Origin: a virus
Reading direction: 5' to 3' (one strand)
Virus record (IMG/VR): IMGVR_UViG_3300020470_000147
Location: 1 to 29,103 of that record
Length of the DNA: 29,103 bases
The position numbers and the translations under genes were made by a program. Positions 1 through 29,103 of this stretch are shown here, in pieces. Within the stretch, counting starts at the first letter, position 1; each line of letters starts with the position of its first letter. The notes beneath the pieces are model-generated. The model saw only the letters and a list, made by a program, of their open reading frames with translations. It was not told where the DNA came from and ran no database searches.

Positions 1-1477
1 CTTCAAGTGCTAATTGTCTTGCTTTATCAAAATTTAATTGTTTTCCTAATAATACACTAGCTTCCATTTGTGCATTAATTGAACTTTCAAAATCTAACAG
101 ATTATCTGCCATACTTGTCATATCACTCATTTCAAGTCCAAGTCTTCTTGCATATACAGCTGATTTTATAAGTGCCTTTGTATTACCCCCAAAGTATTTA
201 GAAGCTTTACCAGCATTATCTGCTATATCAGCCATTACTTCCGCTGGTGCGACTCCAGCAGCTTCAGATAGATGAATAGCTCCAGCCTGTAAATTAAGTG
301 CCGCTTCAGATGATAAATCACCCATCACCATTAGATTTCTCATAGCTCCTGCTGAATCTTTTTCTGCAATTCCAAAGTTTGCAGACATTAATGAAATAGC
401 CCCAACAGTATCTTCTGTAACTTCTTTCATTCTACCAAATTGTTCGTGAAGTGATTTAGCCGCTTCTCCTGCCTTTTCTATTGTTACCCCAGAATCACGA
501 TATTTTTCATTAACCTTTAATAACACATTATCCAAACCTTCTGTTTGACTCTTCATCATTCCAGTAGTTGTTCTAAAATCTTGTGCGGCCGCATCAAGTG
601 CTTTAAATCTATCTATTCCCATTTGAACAACTTTAATCATAGCTACTATTGCTACTGTTGCTGCTATGATAGCCAATAGAATTGGATTTGCTGCCATTTG
701 AGCGGTTAACATATTGATACCTGTTCCTAATTTAGCAAATGCTTGAGAACCAGCCTTACCTATACTTTGAAATCCTTTGGCAAACCTATCAGGACCTTCT
801 CCTGGGTCCATCATTTTTGCTAAGTTATCACCTATTGATTTTTTTAATTGTTCTCCAACTACATCAAGTTGTAAAGCATCTGAAATTAGTTGTCCTCCTG
901 GAAAACTTTCAATTTTATTTTTAACAGCATCAAACGAACTCATCATCATATCAGTTCCAGTTTTTGTTAAGTCGTTTCTCCTTTTTAGTTCTGCGGCAAA
1001 ATCTTGTGCAGTCGTAATTTGTTTTTTGGCTATATCTAATTGATTATTTAAATCTGTTGCTATCTCAGCATTTTTTCCTCTATATTTACTAATATTTCTT
1101 ATTTTTTCTTCTTCAATTTTTTCCATTAATTCTTGTAATTCTGCGTGTTTTGATACATCAGTTAAAGATTGTGCACCTAATGTAACTCCTTCTTTCATCC
1201 ATTTTGCTATATTTTTTCTTGAATCTGCTTCTGCACCACCAACTCTTTCGGCTATCAATAAATTTTCATTAATAGCTGTCATTATATCTTTTGTTCCCAT
1301 AATGGTTCTAAAAGATTTCTGTTGAGATAATGTCATATTGTGTATAGAATCTTTTATCTCTTTTTGGATATCTCTGAATCCTTCTGCAAACTTATTCTGC
1401 TTAGCCTGTTCTTGAGTAATCTTTTTCTCTGTTGCTAATCTAGCTTTTGCATCTTTATTTGTTGGATTTACTGGCAT
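1..1477 (-). CDS. Tail tape measure protein, N-terminal part (runs off the left edge)
   Basis: About 492 codons are open from an ATG at 1477 to the window edge, so the gene is partial at its C-terminus. The start has an AGGA-type ribosome binding site and lies 9 nt after the stop of the 69-aa gene. The N-terminal 200 residues are rich in Lys, Glu and Gln and look helical. A hydrophobic segment around residues 262-284 (NPILLAIIAATVAIVAMI) resembles the membrane-like stretches usual in tape measure proteins. It is followed by Ala/Gly-rich helical sequence typical of the family (GAIHLSEAAGVAPAEVMADI). Tape measures set tail length, fill the tube lumen and leave with the DNA at infection. The position just after the sheath, tube and chaperone genes supports the call. 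The gene is expected to continue well beyond this window. Confidence 0.8.
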   Translation of the reverse strand, partial: MPVNPTNKDAKARLATEKKITQEQAKQNKFAEGFRDIQKEIKDSIHNMTLSQQKSFRTIMGTKDIMTAINENLLIAERVGGAEADSRKNIAKWMKEGVTLGAQSLTDVSKHAELQELMEKIEEEKIRNISKYRGKNAEIATDLNNQLDIAKKQITTAQDFAAELKRRNDLTKTGTDMMMSSFDAVKNKIESFPGGQLISDALQLDVVGEQLKKSIGDNLAKMMDPGEGPDRFAKGFQSIGKAGSQAFAKLGTGINMLTAQMAANPILLAIIAATVAIVAMIKVVQMGIDRFKALDAAAQDFRTTTGMMKSQTEGLDNVLLKVNEKYRDSGVTIEKAGEAAKSLHEQFGRMKEVTEDTVGAISLMSANFGIAEKDSAGAMRNLMVMGDLSSEAALNLQAGAIHLSEAAGVAPAEVMADIADNAGKASKYFGGNTKALIKSAVYARRLGLEMSDMTSMADNLLDFESSINAQMEASVLLGKQLNFDKARQLALE

Positions 1478-1486
1478 TATCTATTC

Positions 1487-1696
1487 CTATATTCCAAGTT
1501 TCTTCATTCTATCTTTTCTGGATTTATCTGCTTTTGCTATAGCCTTTTTTAACTCTTGTGCAGATTTATCTGTCTGTTTTGCTAATCTGGCTAATTCTGG
1601 GTCAGCTTGTAGTAATTTAATAACCTTTTTGGCTTGTCCTTTTAACAATCTACCCATTATTTTACCAAACAAGTTTTCAACTAATGGTTTTTTCAT
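1487..1696 (-). CDS. Small basic helical protein between chaperone and tape measure genes
   Basis: A 69-aa protein starting MKKPLVENLFGKIM and ending RKDRMKKLGI. It is strongly basic (many Lys and Arg), has no membrane segment, and appears to be two amphipathic helices (around residues 5-30 and 45-65). The start is well supported: AAGGAG lies about 8 nt upstream of the ATG, and a TATTTAT element sits 36 nt upstream. Its stop is 9 nt from the tape measure start, so the two are probably co-transcribed. I do not recognise the family. The position between tail chaperone and tape measure suggests a small tail assembly factor or a tape-measure-associated protein, but that rests on location only. 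Confidence 0.7.
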   Translation of the reverse strand: MKKPLVENLFGKIMGRLLKGQAKKVIKLLQADPELARLAKQTDKSAQELKKAIAKADKSRKDRMKKLGI

Positions 1697-1765: not shown

Positions 1766-1996
1766 TTATCTTATATTAGGACGGGAAACACCACTTGGTT
1801 TTGAGGCACTTTTCTTCTGTGCTTCGTTTTCTTGTTTAACCGTTTTTTCAAGTAATTTAAGGTTAAACCTACGAAGGTAAACTGGCATATTATAGACTTC
1901 TGTATGAGTGAATCCACCTTTTCCATAATATAACAGAGTAAAGATTTCCTCGTGAATAGCCGGCCTACTTGACGCCGGCAGGCCAAAAAAACTCAA
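1766..1996 (-). CDS. Tail assembly chaperone second segment, probably made by frameshift fusion
   Basis: This frame is open from just after a TGA at 2000-2002 to a TAA at 1766. The only upstream start is a TTG at 1996 with no Shine-Dalgarno sequence, so independent initiation looks unlikely. From about 1955 it encodes IHEEIFTLLYYGKGGFTHTE, then an EVYNMPVYLRRF stretch and a charged Lys/Glu/Gln tail ending near SGVSRPNIR. The helical pattern with a conserved-looking NMPVYLRRF motif resembles the C-terminal part I associate with gp26-type tail chaperones, where it would be continuous with the preceding zinc-site domain. Here it lies in the +1 (equally -2) frame relative to the 271-aa gene. The overlap of both open frames is only 35 nt and holds a U7 run. 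A +1 shift there gives a 337-aa fusion and a -2 shift a 338-aa fusion. A plain frameshift mutation or sequencing error is the alternative. Confidence 0.65.
   Translation of the reverse strand: MSFFGLPASSRPAIHEEIFTLLYYGKGGFTHTEVYNMPVYLRRFNLKLLEKTVKQENEAQKKSASKPSGVSRPNIR
1959..1991 (-). promoter_or_regulatory. Candidate programmed frameshift site: U7 slippery run plus GC hairpin
   Basis: In sense orientation the codons read GAG TTT TTT TGG, forming a run of seven T (1991-1985). Five nt later comes GCCGGC (1979-1974), a 9-nt loop GTCAAGTAG, and GCCGGC again (1964-1959): a perfect six-pair all-GC stem in an otherwise AT-rich region. The zero-frame stop TAG (1967-1965) lies inside the loop. A tRNA-Phe on the second TTT can re-pair perfectly after +1 or after -2 slippage, and either move enters the frame of the downstream segment. 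The spacing between slippery run and stem is typical of known stimulators. Efficiency cannot be read from the sequence. Confidence 0.6.
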
Positions 1997-2780
1997 CGGT
2001 CATAGGAATCGGCATTACTTTCTCGTGAGCACATTCTGCACAAGAAAAGTAGTAATTCATATCCACATCAGCTGTGGCGGCTGTTAAGTGATTTCTAAAT
2101 GCGAGAGAATCTCTTGAAAGAAATTCTTCATCAACGAATTTTCTAATTTTTCCTTTATCCGTTTCACCATCTATTGAAGTAATAACATGCTTTAATCGTG
2201 TAGTAATCTCTGAATCTACATCTTTATTAAATTTCTTCAAACTTTTAATTTCAGCATCAATTGCTCTGTCATCATTACTATTTAATAGTTTATACTTAAT
2301 CAGACGATTTGATGCTGGTAATGTAAATTCAAATTCATTCTTACCCTTTTCATAAGAAGACCAATCAAGTTCCTTATGTTCTAAATGAGTTAAATCAATA
2401 TTATCTTCATTTTTTGCATTACAGGCTGGACAATTTACCTCTACCTTGTAATCTTTACCATAACCAAGAATACGAGCTGCTACCATAAGTGCATTCTTAT
2501 CACCAACTAATAAAGAACCAAAATCTATTTTGGATACTATCAAAGATTGTAATAGTTTATCTAATACAATACCTTTTTTAATTAAATTAGTAGATGTAAG
2601 AATATCTTCCTCTTTCGCAGTCATATATTTTATTTCAACTTGACCTGATGATAGTGGATTGTCTGAAGGATAAAAATAACCCTTTGACGGTAAATCAACT
2701 ATTTCAGTTGGAAATTTAGGTTTAGTTTCTTCATTTACAACATCTTCTGTTGCTTGTGTAGTTTTATTATCTTCTGCCAT
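1965..2780 (-). CDS. gp26-family tail/baseplate assembly chaperone (zero-frame product)
   Basis: A 271-aa protein with a disordered acidic N-terminus, then VDLPSKGYFYP (residues 28-38), a motif I associate with the T4 baseplate gp26-like family. It carries two CxxC pairs, CPAC at residues 117-120 and CAEC at 247-250, which could form one zinc site. The start at 2780 has AGGAG about 9 nt upstream. Tube gene before and tape measure after match the position of tail assembly chaperones, such as lambda G and GT, which coat the tape measure during tail assembly. The zero frame ends right after FFWPAGVK, inside a GC-rich hairpin, and sequence that appears to continue the family is found in the next frame. 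A gp26-like role in hub assembly is the family inference; the G/GT-like role is mine from gene order. Confidence 0.7.
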   Translation of the reverse strand: MAEDNKTTQATEDVVNEETKPKFPTEIVDLPSKGYFYPSDNPLSSGQVEIKYMTAKEEDILTSTNLIKKGIVLDKLLQSLIVSKIDFGSLLVGDKNALMVAARILGYGKDYKVEVNCPACNAKNEDNIDLTHLEHKELDWSSYEKGKNEFEFTLPASNRLIKYKLLNSNDDRAIDAEIKSLKKFNKDVDSEITTRLKHVITSIDGETDKGKIRKFVDEEFLSRDSLAFRNHLTAATADVDMNYYFSCAECAHEKVMPIPMTVEFFWPAGVK

Positions 2781-2936: not shown

Positions 2937-3425
2937 TTAGTATTGTAAGATTGCGTAATCGTATTTCAATGTTAATGAAATACCAACAACATCATTTGTT
3001 GCCCAATCCATATCACCAAAAGTAGCTTCTTTAATCCAAGTACCTTTTAGTGTCCATTCTTCTACTTTATCACCAACAGGACCGAGAACATTGATTACAA
3101 CATCTTTCTTATAGAAATCAGAATAACCATCTCTACCAGTTACCGATTCGTGTGATAATCTTATCCACTCCATACAAGCTTGAGCAGCAGAAGGAACAAC
3201 TGGGTCATATAATTCAATTGCTAAATCTTGCCAAGCACCTTTACCTTTAACATATCTTTGAATGTTAATGTGGTCTAATGTTACTTCTTCAAAAGTAATA
3301 CTTGGTCTAGCAACTTTCTTAATCAAATATGCTGGAACACCTTCTACATACATTATAAACCTATTCTGTAATTTAGGTTCAAATGGTGTAAACATTATTT
3401 CTGTAGGGTCTAATATTTGAGCCAT
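2937..3425 (-). CDS. 19: Tail tube protein (gp19-like)
   Basis: A 162-aa protein, the same size as T4 gp19 (163 aa). It begins MAQILDPTEIMFTPFEPKLQ and contains NRFIMYVEGVPAYLIKKVARP, followed by a short-strand pattern ending KYDYAILQY. This matches the tube fold of T4-type phages, in which an N-terminal strand precedes an NRF(I/V) segment and the C-terminus reads TLKYDYA. Hexamers of this protein stack to form the inner tail tube on the baseplate. The ribosome binding site is GGAGAAG, 6 nt before the ATG. The gene is separated from the sheath gene by its own terminator and promoter-like element and is closed by another hairpin, which fits separate high-level expression. Confidence 0.92.
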   Translation of the reverse strand: MAQILDPTEIMFTPFEPKLQNRFIMYVEGVPAYLIKKVARPSITFEEVTLDHINIQRYVKGKGAWQDLAIELYDPVVPSAAQACMEWIRLSHESVTGRDGYSDFYKKDVVINVLGPVGDKVEEWTLKGTWIKEATFGDMDWATNDVVGISLTLKYDYAILQY

Positions 3426-9582: not shown

Positions 9583-10365
9583 TTAAGATCCACCACCTGG
9601 ACCACCAAGACTTTTTCGTTTGAGAGTTAGTACCATTGATTGAGAATATGTTGGATAAGCTCTCGTTGCTTCAAATATATTTCTTTTTCTATAATCATAA
9701 TTAAAAACATCTACAAATGATACGCTAAGTTCTCCATTATAGATATGTGAAGTAGAACCACCTGGACCTACAAACTGTAATCCACATATGTACCCTTGAT
9801 TATCCCATTCATTGAGAGGTGCATTATATTCAGCTGCTGAAGCTGAATTAAATGTTACATAATCAGCGAAGGTATTTCCACTAAATCCTGTATCATTATC
9901 TGTATCTGTTATTTTCCAAATTTCTGTGGAATTGGCTTGTTTTGCAAAATTTTGCCATCTATTAGCTATCTTATGAAAATAAGAACCAGTATTTTGAAAG
10001 TTAAATGACCCAGTTACGACTCTTATAGTACCTTGAACAAGAATCACATCTTCTCTACTTTCCACCAAACTCTGTGAAAATGTATTTGATGGATCTCCGT
10101 CAATACCATCTATTGCTCCAGAAACTTCTGCATAAAAATCAGATATTTTTATTTCAGGATTTCTTTGTCCAAAAGCTAAAGCTGCATTTGGGTCCCCACC
10201 AATACAACGATGAAGACTACACGAAATTCCAGCATTACCTATTGGGTCCTGCCTGAAATTGGCGATTGATTCACTCTCAGCCAGAAGAGAACCACCCTTT
10301 GTATATTGTCCAGTGGCTGCACCTAAATCACCAAGACTTAAATTATTTCTTCTGATGGTAGGCAT
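9583..10365 (-). CDS. Unknown virion protein downstream of the S74 fibre
   Basis: A 260-aa protein beginning MPTIRRNNLSLGDLGAATGQ and ending in a glycine-rich KSLGGPGGGS tail. It is Ser/Thr/Asn/aromatic-rich with no signal peptide or membrane segment and looks mostly beta. Its ATG shares one base with the TAA of the fibre gene (TAATG), and GGGGA lies upstream, so translation is probably coupled to the fibre. A segment near the middle (FNFQNTGSYFHKIANRWQNF) and YNGELSVSFVDVFNYDYRKR near the end look like folded domain sequence. I do not recognise the family. Position suggests a fibre-associated adaptor, a collar/whisker protein or a neck decoration, but nothing in the sequence decides this. 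Confidence 0.75.
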   Translation of the reverse strand: MPTIRRNNLSLGDLGAATGQYTKGGSLLAESESIANFRQDPIGNAGISCSLHRCIGGDPNAALAFGQRNPEIKISDFYAEVSGAIDGIDGDPSNTFSQSLVESREDVILVQGTIRVVTGSFNFQNTGSYFHKIANRWQNFAKQANSTEIWKITDTDNDTGFSGNTFADYVTFNSASAAEYNAPLNEWDNQGYICGLQFVGPGGSTSHIYNGELSVSFVDVFNYDYRKRNIFEATRAYPTYSQSMVLTLKRKSLGGPGGGS

Positions 10366-10673
10366 TAGCTATCCCCTTTTAATTTTTCAACCTCGTCTTT
10401 CAATTCATCAATCTGTTTTTGTTGTTCCTTAACAGATTCTATTAATAACCCAACCAATCTATCGTGTCTAACACCAAGATATCCATTATGATTTGTTCTA
10501 ACTAATTCAGGTAATACTTTCTGAACATCTTGTGCTATGATTCCACTATCACTTGTTCCTTCTGGATATGTTGTTTGATTACTACCCCAATTATATCTAA
10601 CACCTCTTAATTGTTGAACTTTATCAATTGGATTTTCAATTGTTTTAATATTATATTTTAAGTTTTCATCTGA
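10365..10673 (-). other. Peptidase-S74 autocleaving chaperone domain of the fibre
   Basis: It encodes the C-terminal 102 residues, starting at the Ser of SDENLK. By family knowledge the chain is cut just before this Ser, with the Lys five residues later as the second catalytic residue. The final 25 residues form a trimeric-type coiled coil. After maturation this piece would be absent from the virion. Confidence 0.8.
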
Positions 10674-13600
10674 TGAATAATAAGCTACAACATCACCTGC
10701 AGAATTTATATCACTTCCAGATATAGTTCCGACTGTATGAAAGTCTGCCATTGGGTCAATTGTATTGACACCCACCTTTCCAGTTGCACCTTTAATAATC
10801 ATATGAGTATTTATTGTCGCATCGGTTCTACTACCAAATACTCCAAAGTGCATATCATCTTGATCGTCCCAACCAAGACACATATCATCATCTGTAGCTT
10901 CTACACCCAATCTAACAAATCTTGTAGAGCTTTCTTCTATTAAAAGTTGAGGATTACTTTCAGATACTATATGAAGAAATTGATCAGGAGTATTTGTTCC
11001 TATACCTACCCAACCTTTAGGTGTAATAGCTAATCTATCATTAACTTTATAATTTGCAAATGCACCTTCACCAGTTCCAAATCTCAATGAAGCTTCAGTC
11101 TGTGTTACACTACCTTGAGATGTTCTAACTGACCTTATATAATTTGAAACCATATTTGGATTAATATCTGGTTGATTTGTATTAGTTAAAAATCCAATAC
11201 CAGCAAATGTTCCTTCATTACTACTTTGGTTATGTATAACCATACCATAATTGTTATATGATGAAGAAACATCACCACTTAAAAATCCAGAACGAACTTG
11301 TAGTGAAGAACTTATTTTATTTCCATATTCTCTATCTGCTGCTTGTCCATTTTCTGGGAATCCATATCCACCTACTATAACTTGTTTATCAGAACGAACT
11401 AATCTACTAGCACTTACTGTTGATGAACTTATATTTGAATTTGCCCATAAACCACCAAAAACTTGTAATCTATGTCCTCTCTTGTCAGTAACATCTTTAT
11501 CTTGAGCAGTTCCGTGATTTTGAATAGTATCTGAACCTACTACTAATGAACCAGATTGATCAAAACCACGCATTGAAAAGTTGTTATTAGTTGCAAATGC
11601 TATATCAGAGTTCAAATAATTAGAATCAACACCAGTGAAATTTTCTATTGTAAAACATCCGTCAGTATCTTGTTGTAAAGAAGTACCCCAACCATTGTTG
11701 TTCCCTTCAATTGTCAATGTTGCAGCTGATGGAGATTTGATATGTATATTATCAGTAGCTTTAATGATTGAACCTCTAACTATTCCACTTGAACTTACAT
11801 AACTTGCAGTTATAGCTCCACCTATATTTAAATCTTTACTACCAGTTATATTACCACCGAATGAACCACTTCCAATAGAATAAAAATCTCCTGTGGTAAT
11901 TAAATCACCAATTGCTTGAACTTTACTATGATTGTTGTTTCCAGTTGTTCCACCAAGAATCACAGGAAAACTACCTGGGTCAATAAAATTACTTCTTCCA
12001 CTTCCTAAATCAACTTTAGGTGTTGATGTACTTCTTAATATTAATCTTCCCGCTGTTGCACCATTATTAGATATTTCCCAAACACGCTGAGCAGAACCAT
12101 TATTACCTGTTCCAAATATAGTTGCAGAATAGTTACTACTTGCATCTGAACTAGCTGATATTATTCCATAATTTTTACCCCATTCTTGTGATGCAAATGT
12201 TGAATGGTCAGCTACATATAATTTTCCAGAGATATTAGTATTACCACCTATACTTGCAAATGAAGATGTAATACCACGCGAAACATTTATACTTCCAGTA
12301 ATAGTATGTTTATTGTCATCTGTATGTCCAATATCTACTCTTGAAGATGAAAGATATAAGTTTGATAATATATTATCATAATCTCCAACACCTTGACCAG
12401 TTTGTATTTTAATTTCACCACCTTTAAAATCATCACCAGCTTCTTCCGTAACGCCGTCAGAACCTAATATCCATATACCTTTACCGAAACCTGAATTATT
12501 TTTTGTGTGTATTTTAGTATAACTTGTATCACCACTTGCTGTAGGTAGAAGTACTATATCACCTTGTGCTAAAGTTATATTACCTTTATGTTGATTAAAA
12601 CTTCCAGTATTAGTAAGTCCTTCTCTGAAATTACCACCACCTCCATAAACATTTAATGCAAATCCATCGTGATATCTATTACCATCATTACTTGAATGAT
12701 GACTATCTGGTGGATTTATAACTACTCTATGTTTAGGACTTCCATTAGATCCACCTAAATATATTTCACCATCTCCGTATCTACTTGGTTGTATAAAAAT
12801 GTAATTTGCATTGGCAGAAGGAGGATTGGCCTCTACATTTCCACCAATAACTTCTTCATTACCAATTGTTATGTCTAATTGTTCTAATTGAGTTTGTATT
12901 TTAGTTTTATTACCAAAATCTATAACTCTGTTTCCTTTCATATCTCCTTGTGCAGCTCCAATATCCTCTGCAAATTTAATTCCACCACTACCACTTATTA
13001 TAAGTCCGTGACCGTCATTGGCTTCACTATTATTTCCTACTATTAAACTTCCAGAAGGAACTTTAACTTCATTGTATAAGGTATTAATACCATTAACATC
13101 AAACCCAGCATCTTGTATCATAAATAAAGATCTTGGTCTGGTATTTCCACCTCCAGCATCTGTTATAAATTCAAATCTTCCTGTTTCTGATACATCTCTT
13201 ACAAAAGCTATTCTTCCATCTGCGTTATTTACTCTGAAATCAACTGCTGAATATGCACCTTGTAGTGAGTTGGAATTATTAATAAATAATGAACTTGCTC
13301 TATGATTTGTACCCCAAAATGAATTACTATATACATCATCAAGGATAGATGAAAAATGGATTCCAAGTTGTCCTTTTATGGTTGTGTGACTTCCAAGTCC
13401 AGTTTGTACAGAACCATCAGAAAGAACAGATAATGCAGTATCTCCTGTTTGAGTAGAATTGGGTCCAGTTGCTGCTTGAGGGAAATTACTATTAACAATC
13501 ATATTAATATCTTTACCATTTCCTGCTTGTATCTCCATATCATATGAACCTTGATTTAACCCAACACTTCCAGAACCTCCACCATTTGTAGTTCCATCTT

Positions 13601-16600
13601 CTTGAACTGCACTTGACCAAAACCACAATCTTGGATGTTTAGAATCTTGTGTTTGGATAACCATATTTGAACCCTTTAAACCAACATCGAAAAAGGTATC
13701 GGTAGTTGGAACATAACCAATTCCAATTTTTCCTTTAGAATGATAAAGATTAGTAAGTTGACTACTACCAATTCTAATTACTTGATTTGTGTTTGCTTCT
13801 GTATATCTTCCAATATTAAGATACTTATTTCCAAGAGTATTAGTACCAATATCTATCGAACCTTTTTGTGCAGTAGTATCTATATCAATAGACATAGAAC
13901 TTTTTGCTAATATTTGTGATTTAAATGCTGTTCCATCACCTTGAGGAGTACCCCATAAATTTATATCACCACTTGCACTTATATTACCACCTACTGTTAA
14001 TCCAGTAGCTAAATCTGTTCCATCATTCCAATATGAACTATCAGTTTTACCTTTTGTATGATTTATACCAACATTTCCTTTTTCATCTACAACCATACCT
14101 ATATATTTGATACCTGTATTGAAGTCATCTGTTGTTCCAAATAATAATTTTGTACCATAATTACTATAATGTGCTCCAATTCCAGCTAAATTTCTTGGAT
14201 AGGTATGATAATCTCTTCCAGAAAATCCAATTTGAGTTATATTATTATTATCAGATTTTCCTATTAATCGTATTCCTTGTTTATTATCACCTATAAAATC
14301 TGTAAGAGTATGATTAGACATTACTGATAATTCAGTTTCAGGGTGTGGATTAATACCAATTCCAACTTCACCACTTGATGAGATGTTAAGATTTGTTGAA
14401 CCCATAGCATTATCAAATCCAAGTGACATATGTTTAGCTGATCCATCTATACCCCAATATGTTGTATCAACATTATCACCAACACTAATTAGTGCATCGT
14501 TATCAGATGAAGCAAATCTAGCAATTTCATTTGTTGTTCCACTATTTACAGTAAGTTTATAACCTGGACTTGTTGTTCCGATACCGACATTTCCACCATT
14601 AGTTCCATCTAATATTAAATCACCATCAGCTTGTAATTCTAATTCAGCTCCACCCGTTCCAACATAACTTATTAAAAAGTTACTATCGTTATTATTATCA
14701 GTAAAATACATTTTAACATCATCATATGCATTTTCAAACATTAAACCACTTGTATTACCACCAGTTCCATTTATGGTTAATAATGATGCTGGAACAGCTG
14801 TTCCAATACCTATCCTACCATCATTCACCATTGAAAGTCTTGAATGGAAAGTTCTACCAGAACCATCACTAGCAGAGTGTTCAGATTGAATATGATATCG
14901 TAATAACGAATCATTACTTCCACTTGATACAATAGTATTAAGAATCCCTCCTTGAAGATTAACAGTTCCACGAGCATCAACTCTATCTTGGGAATATCCT
15001 TTTGTCTTAATATTAATTGAATCTGAACCATCATCATCTACTATAAGATTTAATGAACTTGCTGTTCCATCTATTTCAGAATAAATTTCAACATTATCGT
15101 TAATTCCAGAACCAAATATAATCTTTGACTTTGCGTTACTTCTATGTCCAACATATATATTACCACTTGAACTTACATCACCAACGACAGTTAATGATGC
15201 ATTAGACATTTCAGTAAAAGTTGGAGAAGTTATATCATCTCCAACTTTAATCTTACCTCCAACTCTTATAATATCAGCTATATAAGCATCATCCATAGAA
15301 GTTAAGTGTTCTGCACTTATATTTCCACTTGCACTAACATCACCACCAAGATGGATATCATATGGTCCAGTTAAATCAACATCTCCTAATCCAATTTTTG
15401 AACCACTTAAAACAAGAGATGGAGTTACACCACCGAAAGTAGAATTACCGTGTGCAAAGTAAAGAGGTTTATTTAAACCAGCTTGTATTAAACCACCACC
15501 CTTATTATCATTAAGTGATTTATCAATACCTATCATTAACGAACCTTGATTACTTTTACGAATTTGAATATATTGGTCTTCTAACGCTGTAGTTCCAAAT
15601 TCTGCTATTTTTCCACTACCAGAAACATTAAGAGAACCAGTAAATGAATGTATATCATCAGTAGAATCACCAAATGTAGTATCACCCGATGAATATAATA
15701 TTGATGAAGAGTTATATGTATTTTGATATTGAGTTGCCATTACAATACCTTCAACATGCACATCACCACTTGCAGATATTGCAACAGATTCTCCAGCTAT
15801 TTTAGTAACCGTAAGTGCCGCGTCTGTAGTTTGAGTACCTCCTACTGCAACTTTACCACCCTTTGTTTGTAATGCTGGTGTTGAAGAATTTCCATATATT
15901 GTAACAGTTCCACTACTCCAACCACTTTGTCTTCCCATATAGATATGGTCTGTTTGTGATGTTCCTAAATTAAGATTGGCTCCTGGTATAATAGTTAAAC
16001 TATCTTCACCAGCAGTTTTTATATCTCTATCACCATCAAATATAATATTTCCACTTGAACTTATAGGTATAGAAGTAACTATTAAAGCGTTATTATCTAA
16101 TGTAGTTGTATTTCTTACTAATACTCCATCTTCATTATCAGTTAATATTCCTCTCTTTAAAGTACCACCAGCTCCTATAATTTCAGTAATATCTAAATTT
16201 ATTGTTTTTGCAGCTGAACCATCAAATGTTGTACCTGAATTTAAATCAACACCAGTTCCTGCAGTTAATGAATTAGTAGTTGTTCCAATAGTTGTTGAAT
16301 TAAATGCGTTATCACCTAATTCTCTCGTTCCAACAATATTAGAACCATTTATCAGAAGAGCTGTCTTTTCAGAACCTTGAGTTGATAATCCATCTAATTG
16401 AAGTCCACTTCTACCAATTATATTTCCATCAACATCGATGAGACTCGCGGATACATAACCACTTGAACTCAAAGTATTTACATTAAGATTAACACTTGGA
16501 ATAGTTAGAGTATTAAATACACCTTCATTTGCATATAATGTTCCAGAAGCAGTAATAGCTGAAGCACTTAAATCACCTGTTATGTTCAATGAACCTTCTG

Positions 16601-17291
16601 CTCCACCACTACCACCAAGAATTAAACTTTTTGCTATTATATTTCCACTTGCAGATATATCATTACTTGCTGAAATACTACCTTCCATATTCAAATTACT
16701 ACCCGATAAGGTTAGTCTTAAATCATTTTCTGATTCAAATTTTATTTGACCAGCTGGTCTTATTCTTATATCTCCCACAGAATTATAGAACATATTTCCA
16801 GCAGATTCACCTATATAATTATTCCCAGTTCCATTTGCTAAATTTGAAGGATTAAATATAATTTTTTTAGAAGGTGCTATACCATAATGTCCACTTGCAC
16901 TTATATTTCCTTCTACATCTAAATTTGTTGCGGGATTTGTTTTTCCGATTCCTATTCTTGCATCTTTACCAGAACCATCGTAACCACTTTTTGATATTGT
17001 CAATAATATATCACCAGTTGTTGTATTTGAACCACTATTAAATTCAAACGCACCATCAACTGCTCTGAAAGCTATTTCTTGATTTGGTTGGGAAGAAAGT
17101 TGGCCAAATCTAATATATTTTTTGGGAGGTATATAAAACCCTTCACTTGAACTTATAGCCCCATCAATGTTTAAACCAACTACTTGTGGACTTGTTGTAT
17201 TGATACCCACTCTATCCACTGCTGTATAAAGAACGCTTTCACTTACAATAAGTCCGTGTTTTATTTTAAATTTTTTACTTGCTTTTGACAT
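10365..17291 (-). CDS. Giant fibre protein with C-terminal peptidase-S74 chaperone
   Basis: About 2308 aa. The frame opens at a GTG (17306), but the ATG at 17291 has GGAG about 9 nt upstream and is the better start (MSKASKKFKIKHGL). The protein is built from at least ten shaft modules of the form VGIGTTSP..xLxVxGNISASG, joined by Ser/Asn/Gly-rich linkers. The C-terminus (about the last 100 residues) is an intramolecular chaperone of the endosialidase type (peptidase S74): SDENLK carries the Ser (about residue 2207) and Lys five residues later that form the autocleavage dyad. Next come RGVRYNW and SGIIAQDVQKVLPELV, and then a heptad coiled coil (ESVKEQQKQIDELKDEVEKL). Such domains trimerise the fibre and then cut themselves off. 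The receptor-binding part cannot be located by eye. Confidence 0.85.
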   Translation of the reverse strand: MSKASKKFKIKHGLIVSESVLYTAVDRVGINTTSPQVVGLNIDGAISSSEGFYIPPKKYIRFGQLSSQPNQEIAFRAVDGAFEFNSGSNTTTGDILLTISKSGYDGSGKDARIGIGKTNPATNLDVEGNISASGHYGIAPSKKIIFNPSNLANGTGNNYIGESAGNMFYNSVGDIRIRPAGQIKFESENDLRLTLSGSNLNMEGSISASNDISASGNIIAKSLILGGSGGAEGSLNITGDLSASAITASGTLYANEGVFNTLTIPSVNLNVNTLSSSGYVSASLIDVDGNIIGRSGLQLDGLSTQGSEKTALLINGSNIVGTRELGDNAFNSTTIGTTTNSLTAGTGVDLNSGTTFDGSAAKTINLDITEIIGAGGTLKRGILTDNEDGVLVRNTTTLDNNALIVTSIPISSSGNIIFDGDRDIKTAGEDSLTIIPGANLNLGTSQTDHIYMGRQSGWSSGTVTIYGNSSTPALQTKGGKVAVGGTQTTDAALTVTKIAGESVAISASGDVHVEGIVMATQYQNTYNSSSILYSSGDTTFGDSTDDIHSFTGSLNVSGSGKIAEFGTTALEDQYIQIRKSNQGSLMIGIDKSLNDNKGGGLIQAGLNKPLYFAHGNSTFGGVTPSLVLSGSKIGLGDVDLTGPYDIHLGGDVSASGNISAEHLTSMDDAYIADIIRVGGKIKVGDDITSPTFTEMSNASLTVVGDVSSSGNIYVGHRSNAKSKIIFGSGINDNVEIYSEIDGTASSLNLIVDDDGSDSINIKTKGYSQDRVDARGTVNLQGGILNTIVSSGSNDSLLRYHIQSEHSASDGSGRTFHSRLSMVNDGRIGIGTAVPASLLTINGTGGNTSGLMFENAYDDVKMYFTDNNNDSNFLISYVGTGGAELELQADGDLILDGTNGGNVGIGTTSPGYKLTVNSGTTNEIARFASSDNDALISVGDNVDTTYWGIDGSAKHMSLGFDNAMGSTNLNISSSGEVGIGINPHPETELSVMSNHTLTDFIGDNKQGIRLIGKSDNNNITQIGFSGRDYHTYPRNLAGIGAHYSNYGTKLLFGTTDDFNTGIKYIGMVVDEKGNVGINHTKGKTDSSYWNDGTDLATGLTVGGNISASGDINLWGTPQGDGTAFKSQILAKSSMSIDIDTTAQKGSIDIGTNTLGNKYLNIGRYTEANTNQVIRIGSSQLTNLYHSKGKIGIGYVPTTDTFFDVGLKGSNMVIQTQDSKHPRLWFWSSAVQEDGTTNGGGSGSVGLNQGSYDMEIQAGNGKDINMIVNSNFPQAATGPNSTQTGDTALSVLSDGSVQTGLGSHTTIKGQLGIHFSSILDDVYSNSFWGTNHRASSLFINNSNSLQGAYSAVDFRVNNADGRIAFVRDVSETGRFEFITDAGGGNTRPRSLFMIQDAGFDVNGINTLYNEVKVPSGSLIVGNNSEANDGHGLIISGSGGIKFAEDIGAAQGDMKGNRVIDFGNKTKIQTQLEQLDITIGNEEVIGGNVEANPPSANANYIFIQPSRYGDGEIYLGGSNGSPKHRVVINPPDSHHSSNDGNRYHDGFALNVYGGGGNFREGLTNTGSFNQHKGNITLAQGDIVLLPTASGDTSYTKIHTKNNSGFGKGIWILGSDGVTEEAGDDFKGGEIKIQTGQGVGDYDNILSNLYLSSSRVDIGHTDDNKHTITGSINVSRGITSSFASIGGNTNISGKLYVADHSTFASQEWGKNYGIISASSDASSNYSATIFGTGNNGSAQRVWEISNNGATAGRLILRSTSTPKVDLGSGRSNFIDPGSFPVILGGTTGNNNHSKVQAIGDLITTGDFYSIGSGSFGGNITGSKDLNIGGAITASYVSSSGIVRGSIIKATDNIHIKSPSAATLTIEGNNNGWGTSLQQDTDGCFTIENFTGVDSNYLNSDIAFATNNNFSMRGFDQSGSLVVGSDTIQNHGTAQDKDVTDKRGHRLQVFGGLWANSNISSSTVSASRLVRSDKQVIVGGYGFPENGQAADREYGNKISSSLQVRSGFLSGDVSSSYNNYGMVIHNQSSNEGTFAGIGFLTNTNQPDINPNMVSNYIRSVRTSQGSVTQTEASLRFGTGEGAFANYKVNDRLAITPKGWVGIGTNTPDQFLHIVSESNPQLLIEESSTRFVRLGVEATDDDMCLGWDDQDDMHFGVFGSRTDATINTHMIIKGATGKVGVNTIDPMADFHTVGTISGSDINSAGDVVAYYSSDENLKYNIKTIENPIDKVQQLRGVRYNWGSNQTTYPEGTSDSGIIAQDVQKVLPELVRTNHNGYLGVRHDRLVGLLIESVKEQQKQIDELKDEVEKLKGDS
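15620..15730 (-). repeat. YSSG-TTFGDS-DDIHSFTGSLNVS module in the S74 fibre
   Basis: It encodes ILYSSGDTTFGDSTDDIHSF followed by TGSLNVSGS, at about residues 520-557. Related copies in the 2891-aa fibre are at about 21790-21890 (YASGSNKLGDSPDDIHSFSG) and 19150-19260 (YSEGNTQFGDDLTDTHQFTG). All three follow a Ser-rich xTSSS stretch and lead into a new shaft block. Confidence 0.7.
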
Positions 17292-17330
17292 AGCTTCACT
17301 CTCCACTATTCATTGTTATTATTAATTTTG

Positions 17331-20300
17331 TTAATCTCTTGTTATCATTTTCCTACTAAATCTAATATCAATTGGATTCCAAGATGATGATATATACATT
17401 TCTACTTTCTTACCATCATCTGATTTTTCAGTTCCTACTCTTACCCAACCTGCATCATAACTATTTAAAACAGCATATTCTGTTAATAATGGTTCTCCTT
17501 CACCTCTACTTGCTACAAGGACTTCCGATGTATAAACTTGTTGATATAATCCAGACCCACTTGTTACTTCAAGAATATATTTTCCACTACCATATCCCAC
17601 TTCTTCACCATTCGCGTGGAGTCCAGCTGTTACAACACTTGAAGTATAGAATGAATCAAATACTATTACATTTTCACTTGATTTTGTTATTTTTCTTGTA
17701 TTTAAGAAATCACCACTTGAACTTATGTTACCATTCACTTCTAATTTTTGTGTTGGTGTTGTACAATCACTACCTATACCAACATTTGCTTCTTTACCAT
17801 TAGTAGCATCTGTTTGTAATAATACATCTCCGTCTTTGAATTTACCCCAACCACCATCTATTTCTACATCACCACCAGAATATCCAGGACCCGTTGACCA
17901 AACTTCTACACCACCTGCAATTGCAACATCATATCCTCTTCCAGTTGTTTTTCTGGTAGAACCTATTATCTTATTAGTTGCATCTAATGGAAGAAACTGA
18001 ATATGAGATGATGTTACAGGACCATGTACATAAAGTGTTGATTCTGAATCACCTTGTGGATTTAATGTAAGATTACCACTTGCACTTATATTACCCCTAA
18101 CTACTAATGCTTCCGTTGGTGCTAAATCTCCAAAACCAACAGAACCACTATTAGTTAATAAAGCATAATTTTTTGTACCTCCGTCTGCGTGAAGGAAAGC
18201 TGCTCTATTTTCATCTGAAGTTCCTAATACTTCTCCATTAAATCCAGTTTTAATTCCAGTTCCTGCATTACCATTTATTCTAGCTGTTATTACATTTCCA
18301 GTTGTCCAAGCAGTTGAATCGGAATGTGCATCAATACATCTTCCAGAAGTTATATTACTTGAATGAACATCTAACACATCACCAGTTGTTACATTATATT
18401 CAATATCTGTTCTTTCTTCTAATTTTATGTCTCCACCATCAGCTCCAATTGTTAAATCACCAGCTGAACCTACTCGGAATGTTGCTCCGTTACTATCATC
18501 ATATGAAAGTTTTAATTGTTGTCCTGTATTTGACATTATTTCAGTTTTATAATCTGGGGTAACAGTACCAACACCAAGTTTTCCACTTGTGTCTGCTGCT
18601 ATTCCTACTGAATTTCCAAAATATGCTGAGGCAACTGGTGTTCCCGAATCAAGGTTTGTAAATTGTGTAGTTCCATTACTATAGTTTCCACTAACTATAA
18701 GTCCACTTGTTCTAACTTTAAGTCCAGCACCTCCGTGTGAATACATTGACATATAACTGGCTTTTGATCTTATCAATCCACCATCTATTACAAGATTACC
18801 ACTTGCAGATATATTACCTTCTGAATGTATAAATCCACTTGAACTTACATTACCATAGAAGTAAGACATCTTACCTCTTTCATCTATTTGACTATCAAGA
18901 ATTAATTGTGGAGTGTTAGAAGCGGCGTCATCACCAGCTGTATTATATGTAGAAAATCCTAATGAATAACTACTATTACCAATTCCTTCAGTTATTGATG
19001 CATCTCCATTTTGCCAAGTAATCTTCTTATTACTTCCCATATATAAATCTTGTGATAACTTTATACCACCTACGACATCTAATTCCTTTGTTGGATTATG
19101 TAGTCCTATACCAACTTTTCCACCATTTGTAATACTGAAATTAGATGCAGAAACATTTAAACTTCCTGTAAATTGATGTGTATCAGTTAAGTCATCACCA
19201 AATTGTGTATTACCTTCAGAATAAGATGTTGTCATATAAGTTGTAGATGAAGATATAATATATTGATCAGCTATTATAGCTCCACTAGCAGATATATTAC
19301 CTTCTACGGTTAAAGCTTCTGGTGGTGTAACAGCTGTTTTACCAATACCAATCTTACCACTATTATCAACTCTAATTCTTGGATTACCATTTGTATAGAA
19401 CAACATAGAAGAGTTTGCGGTAGTACCAATTCTCATAGTAGTATCACCTGATATATTAAGTCCAGCTGCTAATTGAGCTCCACCTTCGTTATCACCAATT
19501 TTTAAAGTATAATTATTGGCGTGAGTTTTAATAACTAATTTTTCATCAGGAGAAACTCCACCAATTGCAACTTTTTCAGTACCATTATGTGCCATTTTAG
19601 TTCCAACTGAACTTAAATTTAGTTTTTCTACAGTACCATTAACAAAAGTAGTTTCACCATTTTTAATAGTTATTAGATTATCAGCTGTTCCACTTGTACC
19701 ATCTCTTTTTAATGTTACATCATTACTTCCATAACTTCCAAACATATCACCATCAGTAACTATTCCCCTATTAAAATAAAATGTTGCATTGTCTGTTTCA
19801 ATATGTCCAAAAGAAGTATTTTTTGTACCTAATCTGATATATCCTTCTTGGTTCTTAACCTCTAATTGTCCTTTATTTGTAGATGTCTGATACATACCAA
19901 GACTAATTTCATCTAATCTTGTTGGAGTATTAACTGTTCCTCCTAAATTAATTGCTCCACTTGCAGTTATATTACCTTGAACATGCAATCTTTCTTGTGG
20001 ATTTGTATTTCCGACACCAAGATTTCCAGTAGAAGCTGAAAGAATCATTCCAGTTGGCATTTCTGATGAAGTAGCTTCTGTTAGAAGTCTACCATCATTT
20101 GTTTTAGCGTAATGCCATTTGTGTCCAGCGTTATCTGAATAGAAATAAACTTGTCCTTGCCATTCTGAACCACTTATTGGTCCAAGACTTCTTCGTTGCC
20201 AAGATATTCTTGGGTCGTTGTTAGCAGCTGCAGCTCCAATATTAAATGCTTGTTGGAATGAATGCCAAGTGTGTTTAGTATGAGTTGGAGCATCAGTACC

Positions 20301-23300
20301 AGCACTTCCACTTAATGCTCTGGCGGTTAATTTAATTCCTGCTCCATTATAATCAGCGTGTCCTGCTCCATCTAAATGTAACCAAGGCTTTGTCGCACCA
20401 CTAATATGAAGTTCATCTGTTGGGGCTGTAGTTCCAATTCCAATTTTATCTGTATGAGTTATATGTAAAGTTTTATTACTACTATTACTACTTAATGATA
20501 ATCCACCATTACCTACATTATATATGGAAGCTATTGCACTTCCAACATCAAATTTAATATTACCACTATTATCAATTCTAAATCTTTGGTCGTTGTTTAT
20601 TTTTGCATCTAATATATGACCACTTGAAGAACCAGATATGTAAATATATGGAATAGTTCCACCATCTTGTCTAACATCAAGTGCTGCAGTTGGATGTTTA
20701 TCAGCTGTTTTTGAGAAATCTATACCAACTCTTGAACCACTTATAACTAATCCATAATCACTTAAATGTGAAGAAAATCTAATATTTCCTGTACTATTTG
20801 TTATATTTTTTCCAGCAGTTGCTGAAGTTTTCCAATCTCTATAAGATATATAATTTGAAGAATAATCTGGACCACTTGTTGGCCACGCTAATCTATAATC
20901 ACTTTCAGTATATCCACTAAATACCATATGTCCAGCTGCATCTGATACGATACCAGCAGTTGTTGAAGGTGAATTTGTTCCAAGTCCAACGGTATTACCA
21001 CTTGCATCTACAAAAAGAGTTCCACCATCAACTTCAGTATCTACACCATTTCCGTGATTTATTTTTAATGTTGCTCCGGTGTGATTTAATGTTCCAGCAG
21101 AAACATCATATTTTAATCTTCTTGCTCCGTCATATATTTCTAAATCACCAACTGCTCTCAATGCTTTGCTTGTACTTATATCACCTGCTACTTCTAAACT
21201 TAAAGCTCCATCTGATAGTTGTGGGTCGGATATTCCAATACCCATACCATTATCAGTAACATACACTCTATCTGAACCACCAGTTCTGACTTTAAATTTA
21301 TTAGCTCCATTGAATCCAAATTTTGTATCTCTGTCACCATTATGAAGAATATAATCATCTATGGCTACTGAATCACCACCTTCTACTTGTAATGGACTTA
21401 TTGGATTTGTTGTTCCAATACCAACTCTTCCACTTGCAGATACATTTAATATTTTATTACTTGTTCCGTCTGCATTTACTTGTGTAAATTCAAGTGTTCC
21501 ATCTTTAAATGTTTGTCTGAACATATAGTGGTCTGGATTAGTATTATCTTTATTACCAAACCATAATGAACCTGATTTGTTAGAATTTATAATAACAGCG
21601 GGATGAGAACCAGATACTTCAAGTATTGCTGAATGTCCTGCGTTCCAAGCGTTATATTGTCCTGCAATAGTTCTTCCAGGTTTTTCTGTTCCTATACCAA
21701 GTGCAACTTTACCATAATTATTACCTTTTTTGTATCCCAACATAAAGTTAATAGGTTCAACTGAACCAATGTCAAATGCATCACTTGAAGAAAATGCAGT
21801 ATGGATACTTCCAGAAAATGAGTGAATATCATCTGGTGAATCACCAAGTTTGTTTGAACCACTTGCGTATGCTATAGAAGAAGATGTAAATGTTTTATGA
21901 TATTCTAATGCAGTTACGATACCAGTAACATCAACTTTTCCATCAACTTTTGCATTACCATTAACATTCAACTGATGTTCATCAGTTGCCTTTATTCCAA
22001 TACCTAATGATCTACTTACATATGTATCACCTGAACTACTTACTTGTAATAATAAATCTTCTTGTCCAGGAACTTCTGTTATTTTCTTTCTCCAAACATT
22101 AAGACTATTATCCCATTCACCACCTTGACCCTTACCAGTAAATAGATTAACTGATTTATCCGTGTCTTCTACACCAAATCTTAATCCTTTTGGATTTTCA
22201 GAATATGAAGCTCCGATTCCACCAACAATAGTACTACCATTAACTAATTTTAATCCTAATCTTTCAGTTGGATTTTCAAATGAATAATAATCTGTATTAT
22301 CTGGTTCAATTCTAACATTACCACCACTAACATGCAATAATTCCCTTCCATAGAATGCAGACGCTGAATTTGGAGCTATCTTAATACTATTTTTTGAAAT
22401 ATCATTGTTTTCAGGACGACTTGCTGACATTTCTAACATCATAGAATCTGCTATAACAAAATGTAACTGGTCATTATCTGTATTTGGTAATGGTGATTCT
22501 GCTTTAATATATGTATCTCTATCTACATCAATTACACCACCAAGACTTCCCCAATGATTTCCATCATATCCCTCAAACTGAATTAATTCTGTATTAAATC
22601 TTACTGAACCTGTATTGATTTTCGTATCATCATCACCGAAACCCCTTTGTGCTGTTGTTCCATATGGTAATATTAAGTTATCTGTTGCTTTAAATTCAAA
22701 TGATGATGTTGGTGTTGAAGCGTATAATCCATCTTTTCCTGCAAATCCCATTCTTCCATCATTTCCGATGTGTAATGATGCACTATGATGATGCATAGAT
22801 GAGTCGAAACCACTATTTTTATATCCACCAGCTTCACCTGAATGTCCTATACTAAATCCATAATTAGTTCCAGCATATGCTCTTCCCATAAACCAATTAT
22901 GATTATCTTGTCCATTATTAATTAATACACCAGCAGCTCTTGAATTAGTATCTTTTTCGTGTAGTTCTATTATGGCTGACGCTAAATGAGAATCTTCGTT
23001 TTTACCACTAACGATTTTAAGTTGAGCACCACTTGAATATGCTTCTTCATCTGTTTCGATTAATATTCCTTGTGATTCCTTTGAAACAATATGTAGTGCT
23101 GGTGTTGAAAGAGATGTTGAAATATGTAATGCTGATGTTGGAGAATCTTCACCAATACCAACTTTTGTTCCTAATTCATTTCCATTAAAATAATTATCTG
23201 AAGTTGGATTTGAAGTAATTTGTGTTTTTAAATCATTACCATCATACATTCTTATGTTTGCTGCATCTGAATCTTGTTGGTGTATTTCTACTAATTTTTT

Positions 23301-27905: not shown

Positions 27906-29057
27906 TTACTTAATACCTGCTAATTTCTTTAATCTATTTGCAAATGCGTCACCATCAGATACTACTTTTTTAGATGATTTTGTAGATGCTACTGGTTTAG
28001 AAGCCAAACCTTCTGTGATTTTAGAAACTTTTTTAACTTTTCCATTTCTGAAAGATTCTTGTAATGTTGCATAAACAAGTTTAATTTCACGAAGATTTTT
28101 CGTTCTATCAAACATTTCTACAACACGAAGTTTTCCAGAATTGTCTAAATCAAATGATTTGAATAATTTATTTGTAAATAATAATTTAGCATTTAATAAA
28201 TTAATTTCATTTAATTCGCTTCTTAATTTTCTAATCACATCTTGATGTTCTTTTAAAGATTCTTTTAAGTCATCAAGTTTTTCAGTTTCGCCTTCGTAAC
28301 CATCTTCAGATTCTGTTACTTCTTCTTCATCTTCTTCAGATAAAGCTTTAAGAACAGATTCTAAATCAAGTTCCTCTTCACCTTCACCATCTTCTTCTTT
28401 AAGATCGTCAAGTTTTTCAGATTCACCTTCCATACCATCTTCAGATTCAGTAACTTCTTCTCCGTCTTCATCTTCTTCTTCTTTAACAAGAGCGTAAGTT
28501 TGACCATTAACATTAATAGTTTCACTAACTTCATCTTCATCAGAAACACCAGATTCAACTTCTCCACCTTCGTTTTCAGTTACTTCTTCTTCATCTTCTA
28601 TACCATCTTCAAGTTCTCTTAAAATAGCTTCAAGATCTAGATCTTCACCTGCTTCTTCTCCGTCATCGATTTCATCATCGTCATCGTCATCGTCATCATC
28701 TTCGACTTCAACTTCTGGAGCAACTTCTTCACCACCTTCTTCATCTTCAACTGCAATTTCATCATCAGCAACTTCAGCATCTTCTGCTGGAATTTCTTCT
28801 GTTTCATCTGCAGGAATATCAAGTTCAGCTGGTACATCTGATCCGCCTTCTTCACCACCTACTTCTTCTTCACCTGCCTCTTCATCTTCAACAGCCACTT
28901 CGTCTTCGTCACCTTCAACTTCTGACTGTATCTTTTTAGATAACATTGATTGAATAGTAGGAGTAAATGCTTCTTCAAGAGCTAACTTAGCGTTTGCAAG
29001 AGCAGTTTCACGAACTAACCCAGCATCTGCAATAGCTTCTTTTAATAATTTAGACAT
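27906..29057 (-). CDS. 22: Prohead core scaffold protein (gp22-like), highly acidic
   Basis: The frame opens at an ATG at 29063, but the ribosome binding site AGGAG ends 1 nt before it; the ATG at 29057 has a 7-nt spacing and is the better start (MSKLLKEAIADAGLVRETAL, 383 aa). The N-terminal helix with RETALANAKLALEEAFTP is typical of marine T4-type gp22. Residues about 50-260 are extremely rich in Glu and Asp, including a run of nine Asp. The C-terminal third is helical and basic (LKEHQDVIRKLRSELNEINL to LKKLAGIK). Scaffold proteins of this kind fill the prohead, guide capsid assembly and are then cut up by the gp21 protease. The position directly upstream of gp23 matches T4. Confidence 0.85.
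   Translation of the reverse strand: MSKLLKEAIADAGLVRETALANAKLALEEAFTPTIQSMLSKKIQSEVEGDEDEVAVEDEEAGEEEVGGEEGGSDVPAELDIPADETEEIPAEDAEVADDEIAVEDEEGGEEVAPEVEVEDDDDDDDDDEIDDGEEAGEDLDLEAILRELEDGIEDEEEVTENEGGEVESGVSDEDEVSETINVNGQTYALVKEEEDEDGEEVTESEDGMEGESEKLDDLKEEDGEGEEELDLESVLKALSEEDEEEVTESEDGYEGETEKLDDLKESLKEHQDVIRKLRSELNEINLLNAKLLFTNKLFKSFDLDNSGKLRVVEMFDRTKNLREIKLVYATLQESFRNGKVKKVSKITEGLASKPVASTKSSKKVVSDGDAFANRLKKLAGIK
28264..28478 (-). repeat. Two-copy tandem repeat in the scaffold acidic region
   Basis: About 60-75 nt around 28264-28337 and again around 28398-28478 are similar at the DNA level. They encode VTESEDGYEGETEKLDDLKE and VTESEDGMEGESEKLDDLKE. A more diverged copy may lie near 28560-28650 (DLDLEAILRELEDG with EEVTENEGGEVE). 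Confidence 0.75.
28670..28704 (-). repeat. GAT/GAC trinucleotide run (poly-Asp tract)
   Basis: A tract of GAT and GAC codons, read on the plus strand as repeated atc/gtc triplets, encodes nine consecutive Asp in the scaffold protein. Such runs can gain or lose units by slippage without breaking the frame. Confidence 0.8.
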
Positions 29058-29103
29058 AATCATTCTCCTATAATTATTTTTCTTTTGGAATTTAAAGTTA
29101 TTA

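Follow-up and report, generated by a model that had tools for sequence, protein, structure and literature searches.

We suggest that the window, the whole 29.1-kb virus record IMGVR_UViG_3300020470_000147 (29,103 nt, GC 33%), carries a tail-assembly chaperone (TAC) gene of a T4-superfamily contractile-tailed phage, which would give a short and a long product by programmed +1 ribosomal frameshifting. We put the probability of this reading at about 85%.

The zero frame of the gene (1968..2780, minus strand) encodes 271 amino acids, the short form TAC-N, and terminates at the TAG stop at 1965..1967 (minus strand). Its last codons are GTT GAG TTT TTT TGG CCT GCC GGC GTC AAG TAG. The +1 frame is open from 1999 to 1766 on the same strand and encodes PLSFFGLPASSRPAIHEEIFTLLYYGK...NMPVYLRRF...; its translation over this interval reads SFFGLPASSRPAIHEEIFTLLYYGKGGFTHTEVYNMPVYLRRF..., and both frames are open together over 35 nt. 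The overlap includes the U7 slippery run (1985..1991, minus strand; zero frame TTT TTT T(GG)), which is separated by GGCCT (1984-1980) from a hairpin. These coordinates, given already in the first-pass annotation, are all reproduced here. With one base skipped the long form has 337 aa and the junction is ...VEFF followed by GLPASSRPAIHEEIF..., so that the C-terminal segment of the +1 frame (1769..1984, minus strand; GLPASSRPAIHEEIF...SRPNIR, stop at 1768-1766) would be fused to TAC-N by the frameshift.

The short form belongs to the gp26 family. It matches PF12322 (T4_baseplate, gp26; E=4e-13, 49.9 bits at a curated cut-off of 24.5) and PHROG 150 (E=1e-15), where it covers positions 8-234 of 282, and the fused 337-aa product scores 65.5 bits against PHROG 150 and covers positions 8-281 of 282. 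The C-terminal segment is similar to the small cyanophage gp51 (hhalign probability 96, E 1.5e-9), which in turn is similar to the end of T4 gp51 (probability 91, E 1.3e-6). The link between the segment and T4 gp51 goes via the cyanophages because their direct comparison is not significant (E 0.13). The AlphaFold2 model, which covers the short form only, has a mean pLDDT of 88.8 and is matched by gp26-family models in BFVD. A profile search of solved structures gave no match, and a fold search of the PDB gave no significant one, the HK97 chaperone gp13 (2ob9) having the highest probability (E 3.9, probability 0.21, TM 0.49 on the target).

Profile searches also reveal a T4-type structural module in the window, with a gp23-type major capsid protein, a sheath, a gp15-type sheath stabiliser and a gp19-type tube. 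The gene of the tail tube protein (2937..3425, minus strand; PHROG 4542 E=2e-28, PF06841 E=8e-8) lies directly upstream of the chaperone gene. The tape measure gene (2..1477, minus strand) lies downstream and was recognised in a single BLASTP comparison (E=2e-12) with the protein that carries this annotation in Flavobacterium phage immuto. The gene order is the same in immuto and similar in Mel-JY01. The position between tube and tape measure, the short and long forms and the gp26/gp51 homology fit a tail-assembly chaperone, the role that we ascribe to the gene by comparison. A lysine-rich 69-aa ORF (1487..1696, minus strand) between the chaperone and the tape measure belongs to no family found in the profile searches, and in Mel-JY01 an ORF of similar size, without clear sequence similarity, occupies this position. 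Comparison of the window with phage isolates by megablast gave no match, nor did the Rfam and tRNA searches of the window. Elsewhere in the window, 10365-17306 and 17331-26006 encode giant proteins, 2313 and 2891 aa long. Both are rich in ISASG-like repeats and probably form tail fibres, and the former has a Peptidase_S74 chaperone domain at its end. The major capsid gene is adjoined by a gene for a very acidic, Asp/Glu-rich protein of 385 aa (27906-29063) with no PHROG match.

Relatives were sampled as 80 IMG/VR loci via the protein, 80 rows via the profile and 15 from genome bins, plus isolates, and isolate-phage rows were left out of the alignment. Some of the sampled loci overlap, and distinct sites were counted separately (147 +1 sites). 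Among the 175 informative loci, meaning those where the C-terminal segment is identifiable, the segment is in the +1 frame in 172, in the −1 frame in 3 and in frame with the short form in none. The continuous frame that would have spoken against a programmed shift is thus not seen in any of them. The frame breaks at the same codons throughout, TTT TTT TGG/TAC CCT. The 147 distinct +1 sites comprise TTT TTT TGG (108), TTT TTT TAC (24) and TTT CTT TGG (8), the others being single or double variants; TTT TTT T is present in 135 of them and is followed by GG in 108, AC in 24, TC in 2 and AT in 1.

The site is locked at the nucleotide level. Phenylalanine codons at the slippery site are TTT rather than TTC in a ratio of 274:2, compared with 979:258 upstream in the same genes; counting only the first Phe codon and ignoring relatedness, the binomial p is ~3e-12. 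In the core conserved block TTTTTTTGGCCT (1980..1991, minus strand), which reads FFWP in the zero frame and FGL in the +1 frame, the wobble entropy at the Phe and Pro codons is 0.06-0.15 bit, against about 1.8-1.95 in most upstream codons. The zero-frame protein places no constraint on the third position of the first Phe codon, so its near-invariance indicates that the nucleotide sequence as such is conserved. At 20 distinct sites just 20 nt separate the opening of the +1 frame from the zero-frame stop, and the event is thereby confined to the slippery block. In the window TTTTTTTGGCC occurs once (expected 0.05). Taken with the nearly complete coverage of PHROG 150 by the fused product, the frame and codon counts support the first-pass proposal of a programmed frameshift that fuses a gp26-type chaperone to its C-terminal segment. 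Of the alignment of homologues that it had called for, the U7 run and the frame break have come out as kept and the hairpin as mostly not.

The hairpin (1959..1979, minus strand) starts 5 nt 3′ of the U7 run. Its GCCGGC arms (1979-1974 and 1964-1959) enclose a 9-nt loop, GTCAAGTAG (1973-1965), with the zero-frame stop at the end of the loop, and the window holds a single GCCGGC-loop-GCCGGC element (expected 0.00). The local fold energy around it is unremarkable (z −1.1 to −1.4), so that it is covariation in the relatives which argues for the stem. With a stem defined as at least 6 pairs, at least 4 of them GC, stems appear in 22 of 138 distinct loci and in three registers only, 27 (n=16), 28 (n=5) and 31 (n=1), the window being represented in register 28 by the near-identical L001. 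All of them begin just 3′ of the slip block. The register of the window hairpin (i+j=28) is common to L001, L016, L018, L029 and L150. For register 27, 16 stems are seen and 1.4 are expected when the 3′ parts are shuffled; across these 16 loci 96.4% of the cells pair, 4 of the 7 pairs vary on both sides, and sliding the partner arm gives nothing close. In one of the varying pairs the third base of a Tyr codon is matched with a base of the stop codon, for which coding alone is an insufficient explanation.

Hence the stem is real in its clades, where it may stimulate the shift, and it is a lineage-specific accessory; in most of the family the shift must take place in its absence. The hairpin noted in the first pass is present as described and the covariation is good in one subclade, but a general signal is ruled out by its absence from about 116 of the 138 distinct loci. 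Translational bypass across the hairpin is rejected as well: the +1 frame is colinear through it, and the residues of the hairpin region align with relatives that have no hairpin.

We propose the following mechanism. Most ribosomes would terminate at 1965 and release the 271-aa TAC-N. Some would slip by +1, when the peptidyl-tRNA-Phe on a UUU within U7 re-pairs with the overlapping UUU, the A site at this moment presumably holding UGG or the second UUU. Reading would then restart at GGC and proceed to the 337-aa long form, TAC-NC. By analogy with lambda G/GT, TAC-N may coat the tape-measure protein, and tail-tube subunits may be recruited by the part that only TAC-NC has.

The same fusion could arise in other ways. 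Slippage by −2, which the first pass had named beside +1 and which is documented in phage Mu (PMC5009743), would yield the product with one extra Phe (VEFFFGLP), and tRNA-Phe is indeed able to re-pair 2 nt back on U7 at most individual sites. However, re-pairing 2 nt upstream is impossible and +1 re-pairing possible at L063 and L164 (TTC TTT T) and in Streptococcus phage GXN1 (TTC TTT C), whereas +1 re-pairing of at least one slip codon is possible at all 147 sites. The variant TTT CTA (L084; LR756508) is best explained by a TTT-to-TTC +1 slip, and TTT CTT TGG is similar to the CUU U slippage of the RF2 site. We thus prefer +1 over −2, at odds that we estimate as about nine to one, and regard −2 as unlikely. 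Even less probable is slippage of RNA polymerase on T7, in which a mixture of mRNAs, one of them lacking one U, is then read straight. A seven-base homopolymer would suit it, and where U7 is intact it gives the same protein as the +1 shift; nevertheless, the layout persists where a C splits the run into T3-C-T3 (TTTCTTTGG, 8 distinct sites), in TTTCTATTC (TTT CTA, 1 site) and where the run is cut to T4 (TTCTTTT, 2 sites). Because the T run is broken in the TTT CTT TGG and TTT CTA relatives, we consider this source of the long form very unlikely, and the covarying downstream hairpin of one clade also suits a ribosomal signal.

Nor do two separate proteins seem a credible outcome, with the C-terminal segment made from its own start or by reinitiation. 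Cyanophage records do annotate gp51 as a gene of its own, starting from an ATG that follows the gp26 stop by a few bases, but in 91 of the 147 +1 sites no ATG or GTG precedes the conserved C-terminal motif in the +1 frame, which makes separate initiation unlikely. The slippery heptamer is moreover invariant in all 80 cyanophage-type loci, and T4 gp51 has the segment fused to a full gp26-like domain. Finally, a homopolymer run in a single metagenome-derived record might point to a sequencing or assembly indel, or to a decaying pseudogene. We give practically no weight to this: the independent contig L001, whose protein is 99% identical, has the same bases and the same site, and in over 170 homologues the break falls at that codon too. 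The assembly error against which the first pass had cautioned is excluded by this agreement. Programmed +1 ribosomal frameshifting therefore remains our preferred reading.

Wider in the family, the direction of the shift differs. Gp26 of cyanophage S-PM2 ends TCT TTT TTC GCA TAA, with gp51 in the −1 frame, and T TTT TTC with the −1 arrangement is found in 80/80 cyanophage-type relatives examined. Cyanophage gp51 (S-PM2 locus L188, 1156-1364; loci L189-L268) is listed in the annotation as a baseplate hub assembly catalyst with a gene of its own; it seems to be the C-terminal portion of a gp26 −1 product. A similar −1 layout occurs in isolate phages of Aeromonas, Stenotrophomonas, Vibrio, Agrobacterium and Xanthomonas, and inspection of the frames shows the +1 layout in SP-15, LIS04, GXN1, RM378, Mel-JY01 and immuto. 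The only −1 loci among the 175, L050, L054 and L149, have A AAT TTC TTC TGG at the break. Shift directions cluster strongly on a maximum-likelihood tree built from 109 short forms, with 5 changes in all against 17 in shuffles. The L050/L149 pair (−1) lies inside a +1 clade, whose enclosing forks are moderately supported, and long branches blur the deep order. The tree thus makes it likely that a homologous gene has switched its shift direction on more than one occasion.

Frameshifted tail chaperones are already known, and −1, −2 and +1 shifts are all documented among phages (PMC5009743). The cyanophage pair gp26 and gp51 (S-PM2, P-SSM2; Kyanoviridae) belongs to the same family as the window gene and has a homologous C-terminal segment; however, its shift would be a −1 tandem slippage on X XXY YYZ, at T TTT TTC just before the stop, into the other frame and without U7-UGG. 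The lambda G/GT tail chaperones, reportedly the subject of Levin 1993 and Xu 2004, are not known to be related to the window gene in sequence. They share with the window gene the position between tail tube and tape measure, the slip near the 3′ end and the short and long products, but differ in that the shift is −1 and the phage a siphovirus (PMC5009743). Unlike the classic −1 cassette (X XXY YYZ), the window and the 172 loci use the +1 frame downstream, and unlike the −2 type of phage Mu, re-pairing 2 nt upstream does not hold at every site. The +1 site of E. coli prfB (RF2) is CUU UGA C, where the P-site tRNA slips from YUU to UUU. The window family resembles it in the YUU U-G pattern, the variant CTT TGG being found at 8 of the 147 distinct sites; in contrast to RF2, it has a sense codon, UGG or UAC, in the A site rather than a stop, and no consistent Shine-Dalgarno-like internal stimulator, a loose motif being present in just 31/147 sites. 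Since its A-site codon is a sense codon, the site is unusual for bacteria-type ribosomes, and it offers a simple system for studying what drives +1 slippage.

In T4 (locus L092, 3303-4729) the short gp26 is adjacent to gp51, a full-length paralogue with the extra segment (BLASTP E 2e-6 between the two). T4 gp51 covers positions 13-280 of PHROG 150 and T4 gp26 reaches only 235, the same short and long logic as in the window, where the fused form fills the profile to 281. The difference is that T4 has two paralogous genes with no frameshift site, and the window one gene with a +1 shift. Thus T4 seems to encode by duplication what its relatives make by frameshifting: the relatives appear to produce both proteins by +1 or −1 slippage, T4 by two genes. 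This suggests that T4, the long-stated exception to the rule of two forms made by frameshift (PMC5009743), is only the odd one out in its own superfamily. Gp26 and gp51 are listed as hub assembly chaperones, gp51 being essential and of unknown function (PMC3004832), and a testable reading of T4 gp51 would be that it is the long form of gp26.

The T4-like TACs are themselves known. Passages of PMC10885494 and PMC12846349 credit Vladimirov, Gautam and Davidson (2022, Virology 566:9-15) with identifying T4-like TAC genes, and passages of the latter also credit them with poly-T −1 signals in T4-like TAC-N genes. As we understand it, these TAC genes belong to the same family as the window gene. The title of that study reportedly names a mechanism other than frameshifting. 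The use of a frameshift in a gp26-family gene thus stands less alone than the first pass assumed, given the T4 gp51 paralogue, the cyanophage −1 version and the TAC genes of that study. Our literature search nonetheless found no description of a +1 shift in the gp26/gp51 family, with overlap with Vladimirov et al. 2022 possible. The apparent novelty lies in the occurrence of a +1 shift in this family, in its conserved U7-UGG/UAC block, in the covarying stem and in the switches of direction. On balance, we lean towards a widespread and distinct +1 cassette, UUU UUU U with a sense codon (UGG/UAC) and CCU, conserved in the TAC genes of marine, Bacteroidetes-associated and Firmicutes T4-superfamily phages, with a covarying hairpin stimulating in some subclades, a direction flipped between +1 and −1 within the family, and the shift replaced in T4 by duplication into gp26 and gp51. 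The slip signature is kept in well over a hundred related viruses, mostly uncultured. The records of immuto and SP-15 carry no annotation of the long form, and in those of cyanophages gp51 is entered as a separate gene.

Two further records carry the gene in other settings. In NHDW01000006.1 (305,838 bp, binned as Methylococcaceae) the same gene is found with identical scores near both contig ends (L183 and L184), and the contig probably represents a phage genome of some 280 kb whose assembly ran on beyond the starting point. In CP070664.1, a 2.85-Mb chromosome of a WOR-3 bacterium, a +1-type gp26-family gene (L182) is present in a bacterial chromosome record; it could belong to a prophage, a tail-like injection system or a misjoined phage.
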